Assembly: GCA_009801085.1 (NCBI GenBank)
Contig: VNWV01000001.1
Span: 8,308,001-8,372,000, forward strand
DNA length: 64,000 nucleotides
Source: Lasiodiplodia sp. COLG20
Taxonomy: Eukaryota > Ascomycota > Dothideomycetes > Botryosphaeriales > Botryosphaeriaceae
Direction of reading: 5' to 3'
The notes below the pieces were generated by a model. That model did not search any database, was not told the DNA's origin, and worked only from the letters and a program-made list of their open reading frames with translations. The translations under genes were made by a program, and so were the position numbers. Positions 41,247 to 41,480 of this stretch are shown here, piece after piece. Within the stretch, counting starts at the first letter, position 1, and each line of letters begins with the position of its first letter.

Positions 41247-41276
41247 GCAGCTTTAGCTCACTTGGGAGAGCGCCAG

Positions 41277-41331
41277 GTTAGCAGTCCTCAATGAATTATC
41301 ATCTATCCAACATTCACTAACCCTGTAATAG
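41277..41331 (+). other. 55-nt intron-like insertion in tRNA-Phe between positions 30 and 31
   Basis: This begins GTTAGC, has CACTAAC 12 nt before its end, and ends AATAG. Length, donor, branch site and acceptor are those of the protein-gene introns in this same window; the AA9 gene also uses a GTTAG donor. Each side is flanked by AG (CCAG before, ATAG at its end). It splits the anticodon stem, where canonical tRNA introns do not occur. Confidence 0.75.
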
Positions 41332-41338
41332 ACTGAAG

Positions 41339-41368
41339 TCCACTTCAGCCAACAGCCATCTGTGCGGT
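41339..41368 (+). other. Canonical 30-nt tRNA intron between positions 37 and 38
   Basis: This sits directly 3' of the base after the anticodon, the fixed site for eukaryotic tRNA introns. It contains CTTCAG, the exact complement of CTGAAG around the anticodon, giving the anticodon-intron pairing expected for tRNA endonuclease substrates. Confidence 0.85.
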
Positions 41369-41447
41369 ATCTGGAGGTACTGTGTTCGATCCACAGAAGC
41401 TGCAAGGAATAACATCCTTACCAGTCTAAGATTGGTTAAGCCTCATC

Positions 41448-41480
41448 TTTTTGCCTTTTTTTTTTTTAAAAAAAAAAAAA
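41448..41480 (+). terminator. T5 then T12-A13 tract downstream of tRNA-Phe
   Basis: T5 at 41448-41452 is a sufficient RNA polymerase III stop. T12 at 41456-41467 is followed directly by A13 at 41468-41480, a self-complementary homopolymer block. The distance of 44 nt from the tRNA end is longer than usual. Confidence 0.5.

Follow-up and report, generated by a model that had tools for sequence, protein, structure and literature searches.

Nuclear tRNA introns are, in the textbook view, removed by a protein endonuclease and a ligase, and spliceosomal introns belong mainly to Pol II transcripts. A tRNA-Phe(GAA) gene in a 64,000-nucleotide stretch of the Lasiodiplodia sp. COLG20 genome (the window, whose own numbering is used below) raises the question of whether an intron of the second kind can interrupt a tRNA. 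A first-pass annotation had read this gene as split twice, by an ordinary 37/38 intron and by a 55-nt piece with spliceosomal-type ends inside the anticodon stem. Its coordinates proved exact, and the gene and its flanks are laid out as follows.

41247..41276, + strand: tRNA-Phe(GAA) bases 1-30, identical in 6/6 copies
41277..41331, + strand: spliceosomal-type GT-AG intron of 55 nt between bases 30 and 31 (GTTAGC..CACTAAC..TAG), present in 6/6 tRNA-Phe genes found
41315..41321, + strand: putative branch-point motif CACTAAC, in which the A at 41320 is the candidate branch base; it lies 11 nt upstream of the intron's 3' end, with the same spacing in 6/6 copies
41332..41338, + strand: tRNA-Phe bases 31-37, with the anticodon GAA
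41339..41368, + strand: ordinary 37/38 tRNA intron of 30 nt, in which CTTCAG is complementary to CTGAAG
41369..41404, + strand: tRNA-Phe bases 38-73, with the B box GTTCGATCC (exon 41369-41403, discriminator A 41404)
41404..41437, + strand: 3' trailer with the potential for two hairpins, the first starting at the discriminator base
41448-41452 and 41456-41467, + strand: two T-runs, read from the sequence as a probable Pol III terminator

When the 55-nt piece was removed in silico, ARAGORN returned a tRNA-Phe(GAA) with the 30-nt 37/38 intron and a fully paired cloverleaf. In the unspliced window, ARAGORN with bacterial settings detected no tRNA gene; with long introns allowed, it read the unspliced gene as having a single 85-nt intron and the anticodon AGC. 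An Rfam search of the window at the gathering score gave no match.

The intron in all six tRNA-Phe genes

The genome (88 contigs, 43.5 Mb) was searched for tRNA-Phe both with a D-arm pattern, allowing up to two mismatches, and with a whole-genome DNA search, and the two approaches yielded the same six nuclear genes. All six carry the 30/31 intron beside an ordinary 37/38 intron. The first-pass annotation had proposed looking for copies that lack the 55-nt piece, and this search found no uninterrupted nuclear copy. Three D-arm matches with two mismatches were set aside: one on contig C47, which is rich in organelle-like tRNAs, does not read as a nuclear tRNA-Phe; another is a tRNA-like locus (L109/L016) that does not read as nuclear tRNA-Phe; and the third (L015) by eye has no Phe anticodon arm. 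One further locus (L124) was labelled tRNA-Phe by ARAGORN at an implausible place and has the anticodon TAT when read by hand, and was hence left uncounted. Three of the six genes, at C34:2700556, C56:519942 and C67:2535665, lie within ~1 kb of an Arg(ACG) or Ser(AGA) tRNA gene.

Exon 1 does not vary among the six copies, and elsewhere in the mature sequence a single copy departs from the others, at one base. Mean identity is 99% for exon bases 31-72 and 86% for the 37/38 intron. For the 30/31 intron, which is 54-60 nt long, mean pairwise identity is 57% (range 45-71%), and for the 60 nt upstream of the genes, which are poorly alignable, it is 37%. The elements conserved in the 30/31 introns are the 5' GTTAGT/C, the CACTAAC motif and the 3' YAG, and in each copy the candidate branch A stands 11 nt from the end. 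Judged on these alignments, kept signals around a diverged interior are the pattern expected of a spliceosomal intron on which selection for splicing acts. Part of this conservation could also reflect a hairpin, because GTTAG can pair with CTAAC: the two are complementary in the six Phe introns, and no such complement occurs in the ten introns of other isoacceptors described below. Among those ten, the Ser(TGA) intron also starts with GTTAGT, yet it has no complementary partner.

The 3' trailers of all six genes have two potential hairpins before the T-run, with two-sided changes kept at 3/12 pairs.

The window copy had been suspected of decay, in part from its combination of C15 and A48. The combination is real, but it is identical in all six copies and therefore gives no indication of decay. 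The idea of a lone decaying copy was rejected, given six copies with conserved mature exons and no uninterrupted nuclear tRNA-Phe found.

Interrupted genes of other isoacceptors

T-arm plus T-run searches gave 131 and 142 matches, often several per gene. Since a selection from about a hundred listed matches of each search was examined, the number of interrupted full-length tRNA genes is at least 16; these fall in six isoacceptors and at eight positions. Besides the six Phe genes they are:

Initiator tRNA-Met, four genes: intron at 24/25, 4/4 found interrupted
Arg(TCT) L082: intron at 13/14
Arg(TCT) L038: intron at 11/12
Ala(TGC) L108: intron at 9/10
Ala(TGC) L133: intron at 55/56
Ala(AGC) L106: intron at 57/58
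Ser(TGA) L118: intron at 53/54

The first initiator gene to be found was called Lys by ARAGORN; read by hand it is an initiator tRNA-Met (iMet) with GTAAGC..CACTAAC..TAG between bases 24 and 25. A DNA search brought the iMet genes to four, in two subfamilies that differ in their acceptor and T stems and are paired in each. On the unspliced Ser(TGA) locus ARAGORN was blank, and its identity was recognised on hand re-inspection. Interruption affects every Phe and iMet copy found and some of the Arg and Ala copies, and Ser(TGA) was met once. A T-loop intron is present in one of the four full-length Ala(AGC) copies (L030, L042, L106 and L110), and the Arg(TCT) genes L071-L073 have a 37/38 intron only. 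Two truncated or degenerate genes with T-loop introns, L107 (Ala(AGC)) and L134 (Ala(TGC)), stand outside the 16.

With the GT-AG piece removed in silico, ARAGORN produced a cloverleaf of the expected isotype for 16/16 genes, both Ala(TGC) genes having one acceptor mismatch. When the same 16 genes were given unspliced and long introns were permitted, seven received a wrong call and nine received none. A standard tRNA finder, as seen here with ARAGORN, misses or mis-calls genes split this way.

Several observations from the census stand by themselves. Both full-length Ala(TGC) genes, L108 and L133, have an unpaired T6/T67 in the acceptor stem. L107 and L111 are 3' halves of tRNA-Ala(AGC), and the expected 5' half is not upstream in the examined stretch (for L107, none within ~3 kb). 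Two tRNA-like loci, L109 (C18:151530-151900) and L122 (C56:1869270-1869640), have a T-arm and an anticodon part that is not readable, and may hide further insertions. ARAGORN returned no tRNA on L086, L120-L123 and L125, and no Pro or Trp tRNA gene was identified in the census of selected loci.

Splice signals, controls and mRNA introns

All 16 introns begin with GT, finish with AG and are 50-60 nt long. The branch motif is CTAAC or CTGAC in 14/16, the weak matches being TTAAC, found in one of the Ala(TGC) genes, and the CTAAG of Ser(TGA), and the candidate A lies 10-12 nt from the end in every one. The 5' splice sites are GTTAGT/C, GTAAGC, GTAAGT, GTATGT and GTGAGT. Intron boundaries can slide by 0-4 bases; there is no slide in Arg L082 and Ala(TGC) L133, and both are exactly GT..AG. 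With flat base frequencies and equivalent boundaries allowed, the joint chance of GT..AG at seven unrelated insertion sites is ~7e-16, where the Phe copies count as one (with the slide of the window copy), the iMet copies count as one and the later-found Ser gene is excluded. This estimate was made after the fact and is a guide rather than a test, since it was in part these signals that drew attention to the further genes.

The 37/38 control set consisted of 81 distinct ARAGORN predictions at the examined nuclear loci, including some misreadings of split genes. Ordinary 37/38 introns are very common in it (65/81). None of these 65 predicted introns has GT..AG in any equivalent register. Strict bulge-helix-bulge (BHB) geometry, with a full 4-bp central helix, was found in 0/15 split-gene introns (the Ser gene being outside this set) versus only 4/59 ordinary 37/38 introns, and does not discriminate because it fails in 55/59 of the ordinary introns too. 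A loose intron-motif count, window against shuffles, was uninformative (plus strand, 4 vs. a mean of 8.3; minus strand, 19 vs. a mean of 9.45 and a maximum of 19). The Phe intron signature found no match in the viral and genome contig collections in which it was sought. Group I and group II introns are far longer than 50-60 nt.

For comparison with protein-coding genes, mRNA introns of the same window were modelled by a small protein-to-genome aligner that demands GT..AG, so these ends are not independent in the modelled introns. Five introns were modelled in the GH63 gene and four in the GH5 mannanase gene, and all were kept; these nine, unselected, are 47-55 nt long with CTRAY 9-14 nt from the end. 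In Spo22, coded beside the window tRNA-Phe, six introns were modelled with P0123 and one (83 nt) was kept, those dropped being three of 218-292 nt and two, of 59 and 48 nt, that lack CTRAY near their 3' end. The models with P0122 gave four introns (139-293 nt), none of which was kept. The tRNA-gene introns (50-60 nt) match the ten kept mRNA introns (nine of 47-55 nt and one of 83 nt) in length and signals, and GTTAGY is the 5' site in none of these ten. By these sequence features the tRNA-gene introns are ordinary for this genome in length and signals, GTTAGY excepted. The window GH63 protein is 98% identical over its whole length to a Lasiodiplodia theobromae protein, with the next named matches in Diplodia, and the best named matches of the Spo22 protein are in Diplodia and Lasiodiplodia.

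Pol III promoter elements

A B box is present in contiguous DNA in 16/16 split genes, and two of the introns, at 55/56 and 57/58, interrupt the B box that belongs to the tRNA itself. In L106 (Ala(AGC), 57/58) the sequence GTTCGAATC starts at intron base 13, and in L133 (Ala(TGC), 55/56) GTTCGATCC starts at intron base 5; a full B-box match occurs in none of the other 14 introns. The Ser(TGA) intron (53/54) separates G53 from the T-loop, and the intron's last G rebuilds GTTCGAATC. The intron of the truncated L107 has GTTCGAATC, as in L106, and that of L134 has GTTTGATCC. Such B-box-like strings can arise by chance, since the intron of one iMet gene (iMet-C4), which is not in the T-arm, has a near match by eye, ATTCGAATC. 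We infer that the intron may supply the promoter element where the B box is split.

The Ala(AGC) gene L106 has an additional B-box match in its trailer, which could serve in place of the intron copy. By eye, the Ala(AGC) trailers (L030, L106, L107, L110, L111 and L112) have a T-arm-shaped hairpin of 5 bp with a 7-nt loop, and a trailer B box, GGTTCAATTCC, is present in L106, L107 and L110. The idea that trailer B boxes are confined to T-loop-split Ala genes was dropped, as the unsplit L110 has one. The Ala(TGC) T-loop intron begins with GTAAGTTCGATCC and the downstream exon reads CGATCC, as if the B box had been duplicated.

Among the 15 split genes other than Ser(TGA), a strict A-box pattern fits six; the six Phe copies fail at base 15, and the intron lies within the A box in three. 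A TATA-like match starts 34-45 nt upstream in 9/15 genes, with a loose pattern that admits CATAAA and TTAAAC.

Discussion

The first-pass annotation had asked whether a spliceosomal intron could reside in a Pol III gene. The same intron in 6/6 tRNA-Phe genes and similar introns in five further isoacceptors speak in favour of this at the level of the genes. We consider it very probable that the 55-nt piece is a U2-type GT-AG intron in a working tRNA-Phe gene, that the other split tRNA genes carry introns of the same kind, and that the intron supplies or restores the B box where this is broken.

From the gene anatomy, conservation, signals and controls, the following route can be proposed. The tRNA-Phe precursor made by RNA polymerase III would contain both introns. 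The spliceosome would first remove the 30/31 intron in the nucleus, letting the anticodon stem form, and the tRNA endonuclease and ligase would afterwards remove the 37/38 intron, where present. The iMet genes and some Arg(TCT), Ala(AGC), Ala(TGC) and Ser(TGA) genes would follow the same route, and a gene with a split B box would still recruit TFIIIC through the copy replaced or restored by the intron. The GT-AG intron breaks the anticodon stem in Phe, the D-arm or the step into it in iMet, Arg and one Ala, and the T-arm in two Ala and one Ser. Endonuclease recognition is thought to rest on the tRNA arms; because these are the arms that the GT-AG introns break, the spliceosome would be expected to act before the endonuclease.

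Could the endonuclease do all the cutting? This has been proposed for the ectopic tRNA introns of Cyanidioschyzon merolae and of the Guillardia theta nucleomorph, and excerpts of PMC4090602 and PMC3978253 describe introns away from 37/38, including a two-intron tRNA-Phe, in the nucleomorph and the red alga. The possible pairing of GTTAG with CTAAC in the Phe copies would also suit endonuclease cutting. However, an endonuclease would have no need of GT..AG, found in 16/16 introns, or of a branch-like motif at a near-fixed distance, and GT..AG occurs in 0/65 of the predicted 37/38-type introns here. The interiors are not conserved, and the positions are not that of the 37/38 class but 9/10, 11/12, 13/14, 24/25, 30/31, 53/54, 55/56 and 57/58. 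Cutting by the endonuclease at these sites is improbable. It is very improbable that the loci are pseudogenes or relics, with the working tRNA-Phe and iMet genes in unassembled sequence: the six Phe mature sequences are identical save one base despite diverged introns and poorly alignable upstream DNA, the two iMet subfamilies have acceptor and T stems paired in each, and the 37/38 intron core and the trailer pairing are conserved. What relics would explain are L107 (Ala(AGC)) and L134 (Ala(TGC)), which have the same introns and are truncated or degenerate, and the 5.8S rRNA gene was not found in the assembly, which suggests that the assembly is incomplete.

ARAGORN itself, with long introns allowed, offers another reading of the unspliced Phe genes, in which a single 37/38 intron of 84-93 nt interrupts a gene that decodes a non-Phe amino acid. 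We reject this as almost inconceivable. The resulting anticodon varies by copy (AGC in one, AGT in three and CGG in two), bases 31 and 39 have to form a G-U pair, and the genome would be left with no nuclear tRNA-Phe. Conservation of the GAA loop and of its CTTCAG complement would serve no purpose, and the D-arm and T-arm introns would go unaccounted for. A separate matter, compatible with spliceosomal removal, is whether the introns stem from a single mobile, introner-like family or from duplication in place, instead of from unrelated gains, which we regard as rather unlikely. The start of the Ala(TGC) T-loop intron, GTAAGTTCGATCC, together with the downstream exon CGATCC, fits a B-box duplication. 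An introner-like element had been suggested from the window copy, but introns at different positions have only splice signals in common (by eye, unscored), and a shared introner body was rejected.

Returning to spliceosomal introns as the preferred explanation, it is probable that this fungal lineage has admitted them into several tRNA genes, including every Phe and iMet gene found, that its translation is spliceosome-dependent, and that the introns supply or complete broken promoters. If so, one cell applies both splicing systems to the same tRNA molecule, protein synthesis in this plant-associated fungus has a direct need for spliceosomal processing of Pol III transcripts that carry no cap, and the machinery of mRNA splicing may be required for some of its tRNAs as well. 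It would then be testable how the spliceosome recognises introns on RNA that has no 5' cap, whether splicing is limiting for the supply of tRNA-Phe or initiator, which of the two splicing systems acts first, and by what route genes with internal promoters gain introns.

Comparison with known systems

To our knowledge, no spliceosome-spliced tRNA is known, and we found no report of spliceosomal introns in nuclear tRNA genes among the titles and abstract beginnings of the open-licence papers listed by our searches. A close likeness is to the nuclear pre-mRNA (U2-type) introns of this same fungus, which share the GT..AG ends, a CTRAY-like motif ~10 nt upstream of the end and a length of ~50-55 nt; they differ in having protein-coding hosts, whereas the hosts here are tRNA genes that end in T-runs and contain B boxes. 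A Pol III transcript can serve as a substrate for the spliceosome, as mRNA-type introns occur in the U6 snRNA genes of some yeasts (S. pombe). These introns likewise combine a Pol III transcript with the spliceosome, but U6 is itself a spliceosomal RNA. The single U6 gene found in the present genome matches the family model in one piece. Spliceosomal introns are also known in ascomycete rDNA, and these too sit in a structural RNA gene of filamentous fungi, unlike the tRNA introns in that they belong to a Pol I transcript and to rRNA. A paper on mRNA-type introns in 18S rDNA is, by its title, among the references of PMC11782384.

Cyanidioschyzon merolae and the Guillardia theta nucleomorph are similar in having several introns per tRNA gene, outside 37/38 and with tRNA-Phe included. 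In the excerpts of PMC4090602 and PMC3978253, their introns are treated in connection with BHB motifs and the splicing endonuclease, many of the Guillardia theta ectopic introns form no defined BHB, and, in contrast to the introns described here, no GT-AG ends are described. The ordinary eukaryotic 37/38 introns are also present in many of these genes, but they follow no GT-AG rule (0/65), occupy one fixed position, and are processed by the endonuclease and ligase.
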